64,000 nucleotides of DNA from an uncultured Olleya sp. (lineage in GTDB: Bacteria > Bacteroidota > Bacteroidia > Flavobacteriales > Flavobacteriaceae), in the NCBI GenBank assembly GCA_947503885.1, contig CANNFD010000002.1, positions 62,001 to 126,000 on the forward strand, written 5' to 3'. This document shows positions 11,347 through 39,417 of the stretch, piece by piece. The first letter of the stretch is position 1; each line of letters begins with the position of its first letter. The notes under the pieces are model-generated. The model searched no databases. It worked only from the letters and a program-made list of their open reading frames with translations, and had not been told where the DNA came from. Position numbers and translations under genes: made by a program.

Positions 11347-12429
11347 TTAACCTTTAATTATTTTTTCTTGATGATTAATTGATTCTTGGTGAATGGCTTT
11401 AAACATTTTAAGTATAAACTCTTCGCTTAACCCTTTTGCTTCTCCTTCTAATACCATTTTTCCTAAAATCTCATTCCATCGTTTGTTTTGTAACACTGCT
11501 ACGTTTTTTTGTTTTTTAAGTTCCCCAATACCATCTGCAATTTTCATTCTTTTACCTAAAGTTTCAATAATCTGATTATCAACAACGTCTATTTGCGCTC
11601 TTAGGTTTGCTAACTCCTGGTTATATTCTGCTTCAGGATCAGACTCTTTTCTAATTTTTAAATCCATCATCATTTTAATTAATGACTTTGGTGTTACTTG
11701 TTGTGCAGCATCGCTCCATGCATTATCAGGGTCTGTATGCGTTTCAATCATTAATCCATCAAAGTTTAAATCTAAAGCTGTTTGAGAGACATCAAAAACC
11801 ATATCGCGTTTACCTGTAATATGTGATGGGTCATTAATTAATGGTAAATCCGGGAATCTGTTTTGAAACTCGATAGCAATTTGCCATTCTGGAATGTTTC
11901 TATATTTAGTTTTCTCGTATGTAGAAAACCCTCTGTGTATTGCTCCTAAATTTTTAATACCTGCGGTGTATAAACGCTCAATACCACCAAGCCATAATGC
12001 TAAGTCAGGGTTTACAGGGTTTTTAACTAATACTATTTTATCTGTTCCTGCTAAAGCGTCTGCTAATTCTTGCATGATAAACGGACTTACGGTAGATCGT
12101 GCACCAATCCATAGTAAATCGACATCATTTTCTATAGCTAACTTAACATGTGCTGCATTGGCAACTTCTGTACAGGTTTTCATGCCTGTTTCTTCTTTGA
12201 CTTTTTTAAGCCAATTTAAACCTAAAGCACCAACACCTTCAAACATTCCTGGACGTGTACGTGGTTTCCAGATTCCTGCTCTAAAATAACTAACATCCGT
12301 ATCTTTAAGCTCATGCGCTATTTTTAATACTTGCTCTTCTGTCTCTGCACTACATGGTCCAGCGATTACTAATGGATGATCTAATTTCATGTCATCCAAC
12401 CAGTTTCTCATTTCTTTTTTATTTTCCAT
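11347..12429 (-). CDS. aroG: Bifunctional DAHP synthase / chorismate mutase
   Basis: 360 aa fusion. Residues 1 to about 265 form a DAHP synthase (first shikimate step, PEP plus erythrose-4-phosphate) with GPCSAETEEQ, RAGIWKPRTRPGMFEG and an NDPSHITGKRD metal-site motif. Residues about 270-355 form an AroQ-type chorismate mutase (LRAQIDVVDNQIIETLGKRM, then KAIHQESI). In the related Porphyromonas fusion the mutase domain gives prephenate feedback on the synthase (established for that family). It is the last gene of the pheA operon, 134 bases after tyrA. No other chorismate mutase is in the operon, so this domain supplies prephenate to pheA and tyrA. Confidence 0.93.
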   Translation of the reverse strand: MENKKEMRNWLDDMKLDHPLVIAGPCSAETEEQVLKIAHELKDTDVSYFRAGIWKPRTRPGMFEGVGALGLNWLKKVKEETGMKTCTEVANAAHVKLAIENDVDLLWIGARSTVSPFIMQELADALAGTDKIVLVKNPVNPDLALWLGGIERLYTAGIKNLGAIHRGFSTYEKTKYRNIPEWQIAIEFQNRFPDLPLINDPSHITGKRDMVFDVSQTALDLNFDGLMIETHTDPDNAWSDAAQQVTPKSLIKMMMDLKIRKESDPEAEYNQELANLRAQIDVVDNQIIETLGKRMKIADGIGELKKQKNVAVLQNKRWNEILGKMVLEGEAKGLSEEFILKMFKAIHQESINHQEKIIKG

Positions 12430-12563: not shown

Positions 12564-13418
12564 TTATTTTATTCCGTTTAATATTTGTTTTATGTAATTA
12601 GTGTCTTTCATTTCGTTAAAAACACCTTCAAAATCATCATTTTCAATAAGGTTTTTAAACTGTGTTAAATTGGCGATATAGTCTTCTAAAGTTTCGACTA
12701 CATTGTTTTTATTCTGTTTAAAAATTGGCGTCCACATGGCTGGACTACTTTTTGCTAATCTAACAGTACTTTCAAAACCTGAACCTGCCATATCAAAAAT
12801 ATCACGTTCGTTTTTTTCTTTTTCAATCACTGTTTTACCTAGCATAAATGCACTAATATGTGACAGGTGTGACACATATGCAATGTGTCTGTCGTGTGAT
12901 TCAGGATTCATGTAACGCATACGCATTCCTATTTCTGAAAACAGAGTCACTGCTTTTTCTTGTAACTTGAATGCTGTTTTCTCGACTTCGCAAATAATAT
13001 TAGTTTTTTGCTGAAACAAATTTGCTATAGCTGCTTTAGGTCCAGAAAACTCGGTTCCTGCAATAGGATGCATTGCCAAAAAATTACGTCGTTTTGGATG
13101 ATTCTCTACTACCTTACAAATATCTGCTTTAGTCGAACCAACGTCTGCAACTAACGTGAAATCTGAAATTATATCCAAAACCTTAGGTAATAGAACTACC
13201 GAAGCATCTACAGGGATGGCTAACACCACCAAATCTGCTTTATCTAAATCTTCTAAAGTTGCTTTATAATCAATCACACCTAGCTCTAACGCCTGATTTA
13301 GGTGGTCTATAGAGTGATCAATACCATAAATAGTAACGTTTGTACGTTTGTTTTTTATATCCAACGCCAAGCTGCCTCCAATTAATCCTACTCCAATTAT
13401 ATATATGTTTTGTATCAT
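12564..13418 (-). CDS. tyrA: Prephenate dehydrogenase
   Basis: 284 aa from the ATG at 13418. This start is chosen because the protein then begins MIQNIYIIGVGLIGGSLAL, placing the NAD-binding GxGxxGG motif at the N-terminus, and because it makes an ATGA overlap with the preceding aminotransferase stop. It oxidatively decarboxylates prephenate to 4-hydroxyphenylpyruvate, the committed Tyr step. HPIAGTEFSG (His for prephenate binding) and SHLSHISAFML are present. It has no fused ACT or mutase domain; regulation is more likely through the operon attenuator and the fused DAHP synthase. Confidence 0.93.
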   Translation of the reverse strand: MIQNIYIIGVGLIGGSLALDIKNKRTNVTIYGIDHSIDHLNQALELGVIDYKATLEDLDKADLVVLAIPVDASVVLLPKVLDIISDFTLVADVGSTKADICKVVENHPKRRNFLAMHPIAGTEFSGPKAAIANLFQQKTNIICEVEKTAFKLQEKAVTLFSEIGMRMRYMNPESHDRHIAYVSHLSHISAFMLGKTVIEKEKNERDIFDMAGSGFESTVRLAKSSPAMWTPIFKQNKNNVVETLEDYIANLTQFKNLIENDDFEGVFNEMKDTNYIKQILNGIK

Positions 13419-14554
13419 ATTCTTGCTATTGCTTCTTCTATCTCTTCTGTGGTTGCACATAACGAGAATCTTATATAACCTTCGCCTTGAGTACCAAAAA
13501 CGGTACCTGGTGTAATAAACAGGCTTTTATCATGTAATAATTTATCTATAAACGCTTCTGCCTTTTGCTTGTTTGGTGTTTTTGCCCAAACAAACAATCC
13601 AGAAGCTTCTTTACTATAAGTGCAATTTAATTTTGTTGCCAATTGCCAAACTAATTCGCGACGTGTTTTATAGACTTCATTTAAATTATCATACCAACTT
13701 TTAGGGCTATTTAATGCTGCTATCGCACCTTTTTGGATGCCATAAAACATTCCAGAATCCATATTACTTTTAACTTTTAAAATTGACTGAATATGAGCTT
13801 GGCTTCCAATTACCATTCCGATTCTCCAACCAGACATATTAAAAGTTTTACTTAAAGAATTTAGTTCCAAACACACCTCTTTAGCGCCTTTAATATTTAA
13901 CAAGCTTAAAGGGTTGTTGTTTAAAATAAAGCTATATGGATTATCATTAACCAATAAAATATCATGCTTTTTGGCAAATAAAACCAACTGCTCTAAATCT
14001 GTTTTAGTTGCTTTAGCTCCAGTTGGCATATGCGGGTAACTAATCCACATTATTTTGACTTTACTTAAATCTTGTTTTTCAATTTCTGTTAAGTTAGGCA
14101 ACCAATTATTGCTTTCCTCTAAATTATAAGCTATTGGATTAGCTTGTACTAACTTGGTTACGGATGCATACGTTGGGTAGCCAGGATTTGGAATTAAAAC
14201 ACCATCTCCTTTATTTAAAAAGGCTAACGAAATATGCATGATTCCTTCTTTACTTCCCATTAATGGTAATACGTCGCTATCAGGATTTATTTGCACATTA
14301 TATTTGTCTTTATAAAAACCTGAAATTGCTTGACGCAGTTCTGGTAAACCTTGATAGCTTTGATATTTATGCGCATTAGCATCTAACAAAGCATCTGTTA
14401 ACGCTGTAACAACATAACTTGATGGTTTTAAATCTGGGCTTCCTATTCCTAAATTAATTATTGGTTGTCCTGCTGCTTTTAAAGCATTGACTTCCTTTAA
14501 CTTTTTAGAAAAGTAGTATTCTTCCACACTATGTAATCTGTTTGCTACTTCCAT
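13415..14554 (-). CDS. PLP-dependent aminotransferase, probably aromatic
   Basis: 379 aa, fold type I. The PLP lysine is in SLSKTFNMSGWRIGM. The substrate carboxylate arginine is in the C-terminal YIRFSLCAT context. GYPTYASV and NDNPYSF are typical of class I/II enzymes related to LL-diaminopimelate and aspartate aminotransferases. Its place between pheA and tyrA, with a 1-base overlap upstream and a 4-base overlap downstream, strongly suggests that it transaminates phenylpyruvate and hydroxyphenylpyruvate to Phe and Tyr (inference). Confidence 0.88.
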   Translation of the reverse strand: MEVANRLHSVEEYYFSKKLKEVNALKAAGQPIINLGIGSPDLKPSSYVVTALTDALLDANAHKYQSYQGLPELRQAISGFYKDKYNVQINPDSDVLPLMGSKEGIMHISLAFLNKGDGVLIPNPGYPTYASVTKLVQANPIAYNLEESNNWLPNLTEIEKQDLSKVKIMWISYPHMPTGAKATKTDLEQLVLFAKKHDILLVNDNPYSFILNNNPLSLLNIKGAKEVCLELNSLSKTFNMSGWRIGMVIGSQAHIQSILKVKSNMDSGMFYGIQKGAIAALNSPKSWYDNLNEVYKTRRELVWQLATKLNCTYSKEASGLFVWAKTPNKQKAEAFIDKLLHDKSLFITPGTVFGTQGEGYIRFSLCATTEEIEEAIARI

Positions 14555-15381
14555 TATAGTTTAGCATTTTTATATTCGCCAATAATTTTAAAATGTGTCG
14601 CCATTATATCCATAATAGATTTTGCTTTTTTAAAATCTTGATACTCTTGAAAAGTGACATCAACAAAAAAGGCGTATTTCCAAGGGGTTTCTATTATTGG
14701 TAAAGATTGTATTTTGGTTAGGTTTAACTTACAATCACTCATAACATTCAAAATGGTTGCTAAACTTCCGCGTTTATGGTCTAATTCAAATTTGATTGAA
14801 GCTTTATTGATTTCATCTTCAGGGATTTCAGAATTCTGTTGTTTTATTATTACAAAACGGGTTTCGTTATGTTTTATAGTCTGAATACTTTTTGCTAAAA
14901 TATCTAACTCAAATATCTGAGCAGCCAAAGTACTTGCAATTGCACCTGTGTTTTTTAATTGTTTTTTGTGGATACGCTCTGCAACCTCAGCTGTATCTTT
15001 ATCTTCAATTAATTTAATATGTGGATATTGCTTAAAAAAATCTTTACATTGTAGTAAAGCCATAGGGTGCGAGTAGACTTCTTTAATATCCTGAATATTT
15101 TGGTTTGGCAACGCCATTAAATTATGTTGTATGTCCAAATAATACTCTCCAACAATATGTAAATTATTTGAATGTATTAATGCGTAATTAGGAATAATAG
15201 ATCCTGCTATTGAGTTTTCAATAGCCATTATAGCTGCATCTGTCTCTTTTTTAATAACACTATCTACGGTTTGGTCAAAGGATAAAAATGGAACAACTTT
15301 TACATTTGTCTTAAAATAATTTTGAGACACGATATGATGAAACGATCCTTTTATACCTTGTATGGCTACTGAATTTATCAA
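14554..15381 (-). CDS. pheA: Prephenate dehydratase with ACT domain
   Basis: 275 aa. It converts prephenate to phenylpyruvate, the committed Phe step. The catalytic domain (about 1-180) has IQGIKGSFHH, AIENSIAGSI and the conserved KHNETRF motif. The C-terminal ACT domain (about 195-275) has the RGSLATIL and NLTKIQSLP region, where Phe-binding homologues usually read ESRP. The start is TTG at 15381: no in-frame ATG lies between it and the upstream stop, and the protein begins at the family's usual point. It is the first structural gene after an attenuator leader. Confidence 0.93.
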   Translation of the reverse strand: MINSVAIQGIKGSFHHIVSQNYFKTNVKVVPFLSFDQTVDSVIKKETDAAIMAIENSIAGSIIPNYALIHSNNLHIVGEYYLDIQHNLMALPNQNIQDIKEVYSHPMALLQCKDFFKQYPHIKLIEDKDTAEVAERIHKKQLKNTGAIASTLAAQIFELDILAKSIQTIKHNETRFVIIKQQNSEIPEDEINKASIKFELDHKRGSLATILNVMSDCKLNLTKIQSLPIIETPWKYAFFVDVTFQEYQDFKKAKSIMDIMATHFKIIGEYKNAKL

Positions 15382-15465
15382 GTTATTAGTTTTATTTAAT
15401 GAGTTATTTACCTAAAATCGACCTATTTAAACTGCTTTTTTATTAAAAACAGGACTTCTTAAAAC

Positions 15466-15537
15466 AAAAAAAAGTCCCGATAAAAATCGAGACTTGTTTT
15501 AAGATATATAATATAAAATTACATATACAACGTCTCG
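15466..15537 (-). promoter_or_regulatory. Aromatic operon attenuator (antiterminator/terminator)
   Basis: On the minus strand the terminator arm AAGTCTCGAT (15486-15495) pairs with ATCGGGACTT (15472-15481) over a 4-base loop and runs into eight T (15466-15473). The alternative partner is CGAGAC (15532-15537), inside the leader peptide gene. It pairs with GTCTCG of the terminator's 5' arm, extended by TTG/CAA past a bulged G. The two structures exclude each other. A ribosome stalled in the Tyr/Trp/Phe codons leaves CGAGAC free. A ribosome at the leader stop codon covers it and lets the terminator form. Confidence 0.85.
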
Positions 15538-15596
15538 TTCCTTTTGCTAAAAAAGAAATAATACCAGCTGTAATATGTAGTGTTTATTGTACTCAT
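15519..15596 (-). CDS. Aromatic amino acid leader peptide, 25 aa
   Basis: ATG at 15596, TAA at 15519-15521. The 25-residue peptide contains the run YYSWYYFFF (residues 8-16) and a further Tyr near the end, so eight of nine consecutive residues are aromatic, from all three aromatic families. It sits 138 bases ahead of pheA and immediately before an antiterminator/terminator pair whose first strand lies within codons 20-22. This is the textbook arrangement of a ribosome-stalling leader (as in enterobacterial pheA and trp). Its likely role is to sense charged tRNA-Tyr, tRNA-Phe and tRNA-Trp for the pheA-tyrA-DAHP synthase operon. The peptide itself need have no function. Confidence 0.88.
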   Translation of the reverse strand: MSTINTTYYSWYYFFFSKRNETLYM

Positions 15597-15722
15597 GTTT
15601 GTTTTAATACTGCTAATGTAAATAATTAAATGACAAAACAAAATACTAAGCGTCTATTTTTGTGGTTTTTAGTAAATATTTAAAGATTTATTAATAATCT
15701 ATGGTTTAAATTACAGAATGCC

Positions 15723-15730
15723 TATTTTTG
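15723..15730 (+). promoter_or_regulatory. -7 element for gldA
   Basis: TATTTTTG, 16 bases before the gldA ATG at 15747. A second identical element is at 15655-15662. No TTG lies at the -33 distance. Confidence 0.45.
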
Positions 15731-15746
15731 AGTAAAGATAAAAAGC

Positions 15747-16640
15747 ATGTCAATTAAAGTTAAAAACATCTCTAAAATTTATGGCTCTCAAAAGGCTTTA
15801 AATAATATTTCTTTTGAAATTAATCGTCCAGAAATTGTTGGTTTTTTAGGTCCTAACGGAGCCGGAAAATCTACAATGATGAAAATTTTAACTACTTATA
15901 TAAATCCTTCTGAAGGCGAGGCAGAAGTTAATGGATATAATGTTTTAACTGACACCAAAAACGTGCAGAAAAGCGTGGGCTACTTACCAGAGCACAACCC
16001 GTTATATTTAGAGCAATACGTCCGAGAATATTTAAGCTTTAATGCCAACGTCTATAATGTTGACAAATCGCGTGTGGACGAAGTTATAAATCTAACAGGT
16101 TTAACACCCGAAGCACATAAAACAATTGGGCAGCTATCTAAAGGTTACAGACAGCGTGTAGGCCTTGCTAATGCTTTATTGCATAATCCTGAGGTATTAA
16201 TATTAGACGAGCCTACTACCGGATTAGATCCAAACCAATTAATTGACATTAGAAATTTAATTAAAAGCTTAGGAAAAGATAAAACTGTCTTTTTATCAAC
16301 ACATATTATGCAGGAGGTAGAAGCTATGTGTGATCGAGTTATTATTATTAATAAAGGTGAAATTGTTGCTAATAAGAAGTTAAAAGAAATGCGCGATGGA
16401 CAGGAGCAAATTGTGATTGTCGAATTTGATTACAGAGTTGAAGATGCTTTTTTATTAAAATTACCAAATGCTAAAAGCGTAAAAAATACTCATGATTTTA
16501 TTTATGAAATCACTTTTTCTACTTCTGAAGACATGAGAAGTCACGTTTTTGATTTTGCACATGATAACCAATTAAAGATTTTACAATTAAACCAGAAAAA
16601 TGCAAGTTTAGAAAGCTTGTTTAGAGAGCTAACTGCTTAA
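15747..16640 (+). CDS. gldA: ABC transporter ATPase, gliding motility GldA
   Basis: 297 aa. An ABC ATPase domain with Walker A GPNGAGKST (about 35-43), signature LSKGYRQRVGLA (about 131-142) and Walker B VLILDEPTTGLDPNQ, then a C-terminal extension of about 80 residues. In Flavobacterium johnsoniae GldA works with membrane partners GldF and GldG in gliding; those genes are not adjacent here. The name rests on sequence similarity recalled from the family. The next gene converges with only 3 bases between the stops and no terminator hairpin. Confidence 0.85.
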   Translation: MSIKVKNISKIYGSQKALNNISFEINRPEIVGFLGPNGAGKSTMMKILTTYINPSEGEAEVNGYNVLTDTKNVQKSVGYLPEHNPLYLEQYVREYLSFNANVYNVDKSRVDEVINLTGLTPEAHKTIGQLSKGYRQRVGLANALLHNPEVLILDEPTTGLDPNQLIDIRNLIKSLGKDKTVFLSTHIMQEVEAMCDRVIIINKGEIVANKKLKEMRDGQEQIVIVEFDYRVEDAFLLKLPNAKSVKNTHDFIYEITFSTSEDMRSHVFDFAHDNQLKILQLNQKNASLESLFRELTA

Positions 16641-18730: not shown

Positions 18731-18745
18731 TCGCTCAATAAATTT

Positions 18746-18796
18746 AGAGGACGGATTTGACTGATTGCAACCTCATTAAAAAATGCTAAAGGCAGT
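18746..18796 (+). promoter_or_regulatory. SAM-II-like riboswitch upstream of metK
   Basis: Recognised by its conserved core: ATTTGACTGATTGCAA (18755-18770), the P1 strands GAGG (18747-18750) and CCTC (18771-18774), then ATTAAAAAATGCTAAAGG (18775-18792). These match the SAM-II pattern (AUUUxACxxxAUUG...GAUAAAxxxxGCUAAA) in order and spacing. SAM-II elements are known upstream of Met and SAM genes in alphaproteobacteria and Bacteroidetes. The aptamer ends about 55 bases before the ATG, so its 3' strand does not itself cover the start. A downstream complement (18819-18826) may act as the expression platform. Confidence 0.72.
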
Positions 18797-18851
18797 GCAA
18801 ACTTCCTTAGACGCTTTCGTCAAATCTATATATACATTTTAAAAAACAAAT

Positions 18852-20105
18852 ATGGCGTATTTATTTACATCAGAGAGTGTGTCTGAAGGACACCCAGACA
18901 AAGTAGCAGATCAAATTAGTGATGCTTTAATAGATAACTTTTTAGCGTTTGACAAAGACAGTAAAGTAGCTTGCGAAACTTTAGTAACTACAGGACAAGT
19001 TGTTTTAGCAGGAGAAGTTAAATCAAACACCTATTTAGACGTACAAAAAATAGCTAGAGACACTATTAATAAGATTGGCTACACAAAAAGCGAATACATG
19101 TTTGATGGTAATTCATGTGGTGTATTTAGTGCTATACATGAGCAATCAGACGACATCAATCGTGGTGTTGACAGAGCTAGTAAAGAAGAACAAGGTGCGG
19201 GTGACCAAGGTATGATGTTTGGTTACGCAACGCGTGAAACTGAAAACTACATGCCTCTTGCTTTAGACCTATCACATAAAATATTGATCGAATTAGCAGA
19301 GTTACGTCGCGAAAACAAAGACATTACTTATTTAAGACCTGACTCTAAAAGCCAAGTTACGATTGAGTATAGTGATGATAATGTACCACAACGTATCGAC
19401 GCTATTGTAGTATCTACACAACATGACGATTTTGATGAAGAAACGTCAATGTTAGCAAAAATTAAAAAAGATATTGTTGAGATATTAATTCCTAGAGTTG
19501 TAGCAAAATTACCAGAAGATTTAAAACCTTTGTTTAATGATGATATTACTTACCACATTAATCCAACAGGAAAATTTGTTATTGGTGGACCACATGGTGA
19601 TACTGGATTAACAGGTCGTAAAATTATTGTTGATACTTATGGAGGAAAAGGGGCACACGGTGGTGGTGCTTTTTCTGGAAAAGACCCTAGTAAAGTAGAC
19701 AGAAGTGCTGCTTATGCAACTAGACACATAGCTAAAAACTTAGTTGCTGCTGGTGTTTGTGACGAAATTTTAGTACAAGTGTCTTATGCAATTGGTGTAG
19801 TAGAACCAATGGGGATTTTTGTTGACACTTACGGTACTTGCCCATTTAATATGACTGATGGAGAGATTGCTAAAAAAATATCTAAAATATTTGATATGCG
19901 TCCATCTGCAATTGAGGAACGTTTAAAACTTCGTAATCCAATGTACAGCGAAACTGCTGCATATGGACATATGGGAAGAGTTAATGAAACTGTAACAAAA
20001 ACATTTTCTCAGCCTAATGGAGGTGACATAACACTTGATGTTGAATTATTTACTTGGGAAAAATTAGATTACGTAGATAAAGTAAAAGCTGAGTTTGGAT
20101 TATAA
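18852..20105 (+). CDS. metK: S-adenosylmethionine synthase
   Basis: 417 aa. It makes SAM from methionine and ATP. Motifs: [12 protein letters not shown] at about 16-27, the family [12 protein letters not shown] motif at about 117-128, the [23 protein letters not shown] region and the P-loop-like [19 protein letters not shown]. It is monocistronic, preceded by a SAM-II-like riboswitch (feedback by the product) and closed by a strong terminator. Confidence 0.98.
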
Positions 20106-34729: not shown

Positions 34730-34737
34730 TATATTTG
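34730..34737 (+). promoter_or_regulatory. -7 element for rpsO
   Basis: TATATTTG. Transcription would begin just before the hairpin at 34743-34759. Confidence 0.5.
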
Positions 34738-34742
34738 CGGCT

Positions 34743-34759
34743 CGAAAGATAAGCTTTCG
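34743..34759 (+). promoter_or_regulatory. rpsO leader hairpin
   Basis: CGAAAG (34743-34748) pairs with CTTTCG (34754-34759) over a 5-base loop, at the predicted 5' end of the rpsO mRNA and 32 bases before the ATG. It could be an S15 autoregulatory element or a 5' stabiliser; sequence alone does not decide. Confidence 0.35.
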
Positions 34760-34791
34760 TGTACATAACAATCATTTACAATAATATTAGA

Positions 34792-35061
34792 ATGTATTTA
34801 GATCAAAAAGCAAAAGAGGAACTTTTTAAAAAACACGGTAAAAACGCTAAAGACACTGGTTCTGCAGAAGGACAGATAGCATTATTTACACAAAGAATTG
34901 AGCATTTAACTGCTCACTTAAAAAATAATCGTAAAGATTATAACACTGAACGTTCATTAGTAATGTTAGTAGGTAAAAGAAGAAGCTTACTTGATTATTT
35001 AATTAAGAAAGATGTCTTAAGATATCGTGCGATAGTAAAAGAATTAGGATTAAGAAAATAA
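34792..35061 (+). CDS. rpsO: 30S ribosomal protein S15
   Basis: 89 aa from the ATG at 34792, the universal S15 length; the longer GTG frame at 34759 overlaps the leader hairpin and is rejected. It binds 16S rRNA helices 20-22 early in 30S assembly. DTGSAEGQIALFTQRIEHLTAHLK and the GKRRSLLDYL motif are typical. pnp follows after a terminator-like hairpin, the common rpsO-pnp order. Confidence 0.98.
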   Translation: MYLDQKAKEELFKKHGKNAKDTGSAEGQIALFTQRIEHLTAHLKNNRKDYNTERSLVMLVGKRRSLLDYLIKKDVLRYRAIVKELGLRK

Positions 35062-39302: not shown

Positions 39303-39317
39303 GCAACAACCGTAAGC

Positions 39318-39417
39318 GCGTTAAGGATGGTAGTGGCATCCTTTTTTGTTTTTAAAAAAAAGATATAACGTACAGCCTGACCATTTTAAGCTTTTTGTAG
39401 CTTAAAATGGTAACGCC
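39318..39417 (+). repeat. Flavobacterial intergenic repeat, copy 3
   Basis: It begins GCGTTAAGGATGG and ends GACC...GGTAACGCC like the other two copies. Its left part is a terminator-type hairpin (39323-39347). Its right part is a perfect 12-bp inverted repeat, ACCATTTTAAGC (39380-39391) with GCTTAAAATGGT (39400-39411). It lies between the HTH gene and rpoD. Confidence 0.78.
39323..39347 (+). terminator. Terminator inside repeat copy 3
   Basis: AAGGATG pairs with CATCCTT over a 7-base loop and runs into six T, 20 bases after the HTH gene. Confidence 0.75.

Follow-up and report, generated by a model that had tools for sequence, protein, structure and literature searches.

A putative Phe- and Tyr-sensing transcription attenuator ahead of the pheA operon in Olleya sp. 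and other Bacteroidota

Known leader RNAs and the pheA operon of Olleya

The enterobacterial pheA attenuator (pheL; Phe_leader in Rfam) combines an aromatic leader peptide with mutually exclusive hairpins and responds to Phe only. A 1:2 pause hairpin is usual in attenuators of the E. coli trp type, although it does not define the wider kind. Leader peptides were known only from the Proteobacteria and Actinobacteria according to the available portion of Naville and Gautheret 2010 (PMC2965389), which added the Firmicutes. A peptide-leader RNA of the Bacteroidota, the Bacteroid-trp leader (RF01692), is described in the accessible part of Weinberg 2010 (PMC2864571), which also lists the Leu/phe leader of Lactococcus (RF01743), in which Phe is involved outside the Proteobacteria. 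The accessible text of Ryan 2020 (PMC7366714) reports leader-peptide-like short ORFs in Bacteroides thetaiotaomicron, with pheA unnamed there. The only close account found in the literature search is that of Guerin 2021 (PMC9723704). The parts of that paper available to us describe, for Flavobacterium psychrophilum and other Flavobacteriaceae, a structured 5' element at pheA, report that the pheA and hisG 5' elements are conserved in other genera and have no Rfam match, and present strong clues for leader-peptide attenuation at amino-acid operons. The excerpts available from three further papers (PMC4833913, PMC1262725 and PMC10272879) held nothing further on pheA of the Bacteroidota, and the amino-acid attenuator survey of Lopatovskaya 2010 may already contain pheA leaders from this phylum. 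An earlier reading of the DNA, made from the sequence only, had regarded such attenuation as little described in the phylum; this has to be qualified, since the pheA element was flagged by Guerin 2021 and the Rfam trp leader matches in the same genome.

We analyzed a 64,000-nucleotide stretch of DNA from an uncultured Olleya sp., the whole of which is referred to as the window. It contains the following genes at the locus of interest:

14554..15381, minus strand: pheA, prephenate dehydratase, TTG start, first gene of the operon (model score 200.3 bits, cut-off 219)
13415..14554, minus strand: class I/II aminotransferase (top match LL-DAP aminotransferase, 413.5, cut-off 507)
12564..13460, minus strand: tyrA, prephenate dehydrogenase (392.5, cut-off 295)
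11347..12429, minus strand: DAHP synthase with a C-terminal chorismate mutase domain (all matches below cut-off)
15747-16640, plus strand: gldA, divergent, on the other side of the leader

The operon is thus read in the order pheA, aminotransferase, tyrA, DAHP synthase, with the aminotransferase gene overlapping pheA by one base. Because gldA is divergent, the terminator found upstream of pheA is not the 3' end of an upstream gene. By eye, pheA appears to start with TTG in Olleya (window position 15381) and in some other relatives with a long spacer between terminator and pheA, and with ATG in those with a short spacer. We propose, with a probability of about 0.93, that this operon is controlled by a ribosome-mediated transcription attenuator that would sense both Phe and Tyr. 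The sequence-only reading had suggested a leader-peptide attenuator for a Phe/Tyr operon, and the conservation, covariation and geometry of the leader argue for it.

Leader ORF, terminator and competing pairings

The predicted elements of the leader, all on the minus strand, are as follows:

15639..15642, minus strand: predicted -33 element TTTG of a Bacteroidota-type promoter (sequence and promoter pattern count)
15613..15620, minus strand: predicted -7 element TACATTAG of the same promoter (sequence and promoter pattern count)
15519..15596, minus strand: leader peptide ORF MSTINTTYYSWYYFFFSKRNETLYM (ATG at 15596, 25 codons, TAA at 15521-15519)
15549..15575, minus strand: regulatory codons 8-16, YYSWYYFFF (sequence reading)
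15528..15537, minus strand: region 2, the antiterminator 5' strand, CGAGAC-G-TTG (folding, shuffles, covariation)
15486..15496, minus strand: region 3, CAAGTCTCGAT, pairing with region 2 or region 4 (folding, shuffles, covariation)
15472..15481, minus strand: region 4, the terminator 3' arm, ATCGGGACTT (terminator scan, folding, covariation)
15466..15473, minus strand: T run of the intrinsic terminator, at which a short leader RNA is predicted to end (sequence, terminator scan)

The ORF, the terminator, the alternative pairing, their geometry and their conservation are direct observations on the DNA. A short ORF rich in codons for the end products of the operon precedes it, and its 8 aromatics in 10 codons are unique among the 717 short ATG ORFs (10-60 codons) of the window. 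Between this ORF and the first gene lies an intrinsic terminator with the stem AAGTCTCGAT/ATCGGGACTT (15495-15486/15481-15472), a TTTT loop and a run of eight T (15473-15466), two of which are also counted in the stem. The terminator hairpin reaches -12.5 kcal/mol (z -5.07), with an equally stable hairpin in 0 of 200 shuffles. In the competing 2:3 pairing, CGAGAC and TTG pair with CAA and GTCTCG, leaving one bulged G; CGAGAC (15537-15532) extends from the third base of codon 20 to the second base of codon 22. The alternative fold of 15540-15483 has an energy of -15.1 kcal/mol (z -3.96; 0 of 200 shuffles), and the best fold of the whole 82 nt contains the terminator (-18.9; 1 of 200 shuffles). 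Within 15350-15760 two terminator-like sites were detected, where shuffles average 0.0. The second of these, a weaker hairpin at 15479-15450, overlaps the 3' arm of the first terminator. The sequence-only reading had placed a 25-codon ORF with YYSWYYFFF at 15596 to 15519 on the minus strand, which agrees to the base; its terminator stem at 15472-15495 with eight T is confirmed, and the pairing of CGAGAC (codons 20-22) with GTCTCG is real, although longer than described by the addition of TTG/CAA.

Bacteroidota promoters follow the consensus TTG-N17-23-TAnnTTnG. This pattern, sought at most 75 nt upstream of the leader ATG, was found in 104 of the 132 leaders compared below, against 2.4 expected from shuffles. 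The promoter-like pair upstream of the window leader reads TTTG-N18-TACATTAG, and the transcript would start about 10 nt upstream of the leader ATG.

In the proposed mechanism, RNA polymerase would start just upstream of the leader ORF, which would be translated. If charged tRNA-Phe or tRNA-Tyr were scarce, the leading ribosome would stall in the aromatic run with its front edge halted just short of region 2; region 2 would then pair with region 3 once the latter had been made, no terminator would form, and the operon would be transcribed. If both amino acids were plentiful, the ribosome would reach the stop codon and cover region 2, leaving region 3 to pair with region 4, and transcription would end at the T run near 15466. 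Stalling and termination would in this way make the levels of Phe and Tyr set the outcome.

Conservation, amino acid specificity and ribosome geometry

We compared the DNA upstream of 168 distinct pheA genes, counting an ORF as a leader if some stretch of 10 codons held 6 or more aromatics (F, Y or W). A leader ORF was identified by the script in 136 of the 168 loci, and a leader with a terminator in 132. These counts are one too low with respect to L113, a locus on a cut contig that was left out of the 132 and of the 168-locus script positives; it carries the leader MNTIEFTFNCFYFFYDR, with 7 aromatics in 10 codons, and a terminator recognized by eye. Loci from the same genomes (L012-L015, being the genomes of L004, L007, L008 and L010) were dropped, as were L063, whose final 150 nt are identical to those of L054, and the repeats L092, L172, L175 and L177; L183-L192 and L193-L203 were excluded from the 168.

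In the family of the window, defined here as label f1 together with loci titled as Flavobacteriaceae genera or as unclassified Flavobacteriales, Bacteroidia or Bacteroidetes, a leader with a terminator is present in 104 of 105 pheA loci. In the exception, L023, the contig begins past the leader start, and regions 2, 3 and 4 are still present. When the family genomes were searched with a covariance model built from the leader, 132 of 149 gave a match at E up to 0.01, 112 of these at E up to 1e-4; the other 17 gave no match in this search, the filters of which lose weak matches. All of the ten best matches inspected have pheA in the fetched locus (10/10), and a weak match in G442 (E 1.8e-4) is also a leader before pheA. 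Seven secondary matches (L193-L199) were considered as elements controlling other genes and rejected, since 4 aromatics in 10 codons is the most that any leader ORF reaches there; they resemble ordinary terminators at gene ends.

Outside the family, the script recovered a leader with a terminator in 28 of 63 loci, and L113 is the 29th on re-reading. The 28 loci represent 17 further family labels, 14 from the same class, of which f2, f3 and f8 belong to the same order, and three from other classes of the phylum (L130, L136 and L137). The upstream DNA covered here comes from 36 of 69, 46 of 128 and, for the class sample, 30 of 33 matched genomes, mostly the better-scoring ones. Only 33 of the 119 genomes in the class sample match pheA, and hence the leader is not universal in the class. 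The script criteria failed in 35 of the 63 outside-family loci, and some of these are real absences. Leaders were not found in two f4 loci with a distant pheA (L154 and L155), in the f57 loci L159, L161, L164 and L166, in L115, L158 and L167, in the five f15 genomes (0.6 Mb), in L122 and L123, which have a coding region, aroA by sequence, ahead of pheA, or in 12 loci from other classes (L142-L153), among which L143 has a fused pheA product and an only partly covered upstream region. Aromatic ORFs without a terminator in L116 and L121 (f15) were taken as chance occurrences in AT-rich DNA. By eye, and outside the counts, we recognized weaker leaders with terminators in L111, L112, L160 and L165, terminators with loops exceeding the limit of the script in L141 and L168, and a leader with a terminator in G010.

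Two loci, L129 and L141 (genomes G159 and G191), carry two aromatic leaders in tandem before pheA, each with its own terminator. The 2:3 pairing is strong in the second copy of L129 and the first copy of L141 (0/100 and 1/100 shuffles as good), and weak in the first copy of L129 and the second copy of L141 (27/100 and 10/100). For the first copy of L129, the 27/100 of this tandem-copy test compares with 0/100 in the 132-locus pairing test.

In 125 of the 132 loci, the 2:3 pairing outperforms 95 or more of 100 dinucleotide shuffles. A total of 44 distinct region-3 strings, many of them nested variants, pair both ways in these loci, e.g. GTCTCG in the relatives of Olleya, AATCCTGAT in the genus labeled g2 (probably Flavobacterium) and AAAGCCTC in L104. 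Covariation was scored on 47 aligned family sequences, using shuffles that do not keep relatedness. The 2:3 helix has 89.4% of cells paired and changes on both sides at 6 of 8 pairs, and the 3:4 (terminator) helix has 97.4% paired and such changes at 6 of 10 pairs, with the score reached by 0 of 500 shuffles in each case. When the partner is slid by 1-3 columns, the paired cells fall to 34-41% for 2:3 and to 18-51% for 3:4. The three strands switch together at single positions, e.g. from G-C-G to A-U-A or from C-G-C to U-A-U. Folding, shuffles and covariation therefore agree that antiterminator and terminator are mutually exclusive. Pairing with own arms is on average stronger than with foreign arms (-13.8 versus -8.6), whereas foreign arms are as good as own at a rate of 5% or less in only 36 of 74 representatives; foreign arms often pair nearly as well because similar cores recur.

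The last five positions of the run are aromatic in 92-100% of the 132 leaders (necessarily so at the final one), and F/Y swaps occur there along with synonymous changes at the third base. Both Phe and Tyr codons are present in 132 of 132 leaders (647 Phe and 528 Tyr in total), a search outcome obtained with a criterion that required aromatics (F, Y or W) and not both Phe and Tyr. This composition fits an operon making both amino acids. Trp codons, 70 in all, occur in 69 of the 132 leaders and mostly at one position; Trp was on this basis set aside as a third regulatory amino acid, and looks incidental. The mixed Tyr, Trp and Phe signal of the sequence-only reading is accordingly retained for Phe and Tyr and given up for Trp. 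In the same genome, a sibling leader MNIILNHTWWWNFRKSNFVN (WWW) followed by a terminator precedes trpE (L180 1230-1355, contig C11) and matches Rfam Bacteroid-trp RF01692 with 58.9 bits, and another, MNFIQSLHHHFHTSTQAS (HHHFH), also followed by a terminator, precedes hisG (L179, contig C1). Since the trpE and hisG leaders match their own pathways, each with a terminator, these results suggest that the organism uses the leader principle for several pathways.

The distance from the last aromatic codon to the first base of region 2 that is paired amounts to 7-12 nt in 125 of the 132 loci, so that region 2 begins roughly at the expected front edge of a ribosome decoding this codon. Before region 4 has been transcribed, region 3 forms 5 or more pairs with upstream sequence in 131 of 132 loci if the ribosome is stalled, and in 12 of 132 if it stands at the stop codon. 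The window behaves in the same way, with the antiterminator freed by a stalled ribosome and blocked by one at the stop. With the ribosome at the stop codon, half or more of region 2 lies under it in 118 of 132 loci. The position of the stop is not strict, because it precedes region 2 in 7 loci and lies well beyond it in 7, making 14 of 132 atypical. In the finished transcript, the terminator is still part of the minimum-energy fold of the stalled state in 121 of 132 loci, and no more than 77 of 132 have an antiterminator domain whose stability equals or exceeds that of the terminator hairpin. The terminator wins in the finished transcript, and therefore the switch must act during transcription, as in classical attenuation. 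A general 1:2 pause hairpin was not found, being significant in 17 of 132 loci. The earlier claims that the two structures exclude each other and that the ribosome geometry fits are thus upheld by the covariation, spacing and folding counts. Of the checks proposed with them, compensatory changes were found in both pairings and aromatic codons are conserved, and the search for homologues without the aromatic run or the alternative pairing instead met the near-complete conservation within the family and the prevalent 2:3 pairing described above.

Other RNA elements were noted elsewhere in the window: a SAM-II riboswitch at 18741-18799 ahead of a gene at 18852 that we take to be metK, an S15-Flavobacteria ribosomal protein leader at 34730-34794, and a Flavo-1 RNA at 39311-39386.

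Alternative explanations and relation to known attenuators

The terminator hairpin may also, or instead, block the translation start of pheA. The terminator ends no more than 25 nt before the start of the pheA match in 54 of 132 loci (for most loci this match starts at codon 5 of the pheA of the window), and in several of them (L028, with ATG, L042, L060 and similar) the T run leads straight into the pheA start codon. However, the stem in the window ends 90 nt before the TTG, this distance exceeds 60 nt in 40 of 132 loci, and the long T runs are typical of terminators and would be needless for masking, which makes this explanation unlikely.

In nascent-peptide arrest, of which TnaC and ErmCL are examples, the ribosome is halted by the peptide itself together with a bound ligand, and not by aromatic codons that are decoded slowly. 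The ending FFFSKRNE(T/A)LYV, which is strongly conserved in the leaders of close relatives, could be understood in this way. Across families, however, little is kept beyond aromatic richness, F/Y swaps and synonymous changes are frequent, toward the end of the run the first base of each codon hardly varies, and seven leaders stop immediately after FFFS or FFFR. RNA pairing explains the conserved C-terminal codons because those codons encode region 2, and we consider peptide arrest very improbable.

A metabolite riboswitch, T-box or protein-bound leader with an incidental small ORF would be consistent with a compact conserved RNA, and there are weak sub-threshold Rfam matches, such as a PyrR site (28.8 bits, cut-off 54). 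However, the pheA leader matches no Rfam 15 family, with no known riboswitch or T-box family reaching its gathering score; the aromatic run is kept at the codon level, and conservation falls on the codons and regions 2, 3 and 4, whereas the interval separating regions 2 and 3 is variable in both length and sequence. Such an element is hardly credible here. The same holds for a constitutive terminator or small independent RNA unlinked to amino-acid supply: a short RNA, about 140 nt long, is predicted on either view, but the terminator is placed after the promoter and ahead of pheA, the gene behind it is divergent, the competing 2:3 helix shows both conservation and covariation, and amino-acid-specific leaders precede trpE and hisG in the same genome.

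The attenuator remains our preferred reading. A broader version of it is more tentative, and we would rather doubt than assert it as a whole: a dual Phe and Tyr attenuator that is possibly ancestral to the pheA-keeping Bacteroidia, occurs in three families belonging to other classes of the phylum, operates as a rule without a pause hairpin, has been duplicated in tandem in some species, and adds masking of the pheA start in species with short spacers. The leader as described is a compact, well-supported regulator of aromatic amino-acid synthesis in a large phylum, with its codons, pairings and spacing defined. As attenuation requires a ribosome closely behind RNA polymerase, its wide conservation is indirect evidence on transcription-translation coupling in the Bacteroidota. 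We know of no direct test of this coupling in the phylum. If the dual-attenuator reading is true, the Bacteroidota must hold a ribosome near RNA polymerase, and the leader would offer a ready test of coupling in vivo.

Among the known systems, the enterobacterial pheL shares with the window leader an aromatic leader peptide, exclusive hairpins and the control of prephenate dehydratase. In contrast to pheL, which responds to Phe only, the window leader carries both Phe and Tyr codons and precedes both branches and DAHP synthase; the pheA leader gave no match to Rfam Phe_leader at the gathering score, nor at E up to 10. The E. coli trp type in the strict sense differs by its pause hairpin, which is significant in only 17/132 of the pheA leaders. 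Bacteroid-trp RF01692 has Trp codons and belongs to the trp operon; its covariance model matches the trpE region of the same genome but not the pheA leader. The Leu/phe leader RF01743 of Lactococcus comes from another phylum, and the pheA leader has no match to it. The element of Guerin 2021 lies, in the available account, at the same gene and in the same family; that portion of the paper is without the leader sequence, pairing scheme, covariation and range beyond the family, all of which are given here. What is already known is therefore the kind of system, peptide-leader attenuation, and the existence of a pheA 5' element in Flavobacteriaceae; what is new is the anatomy of the leader, the three-way covariation of both states, the Phe and Tyr logic, the range beyond the family, the lack of a general pause hairpin, and the tandem copies.
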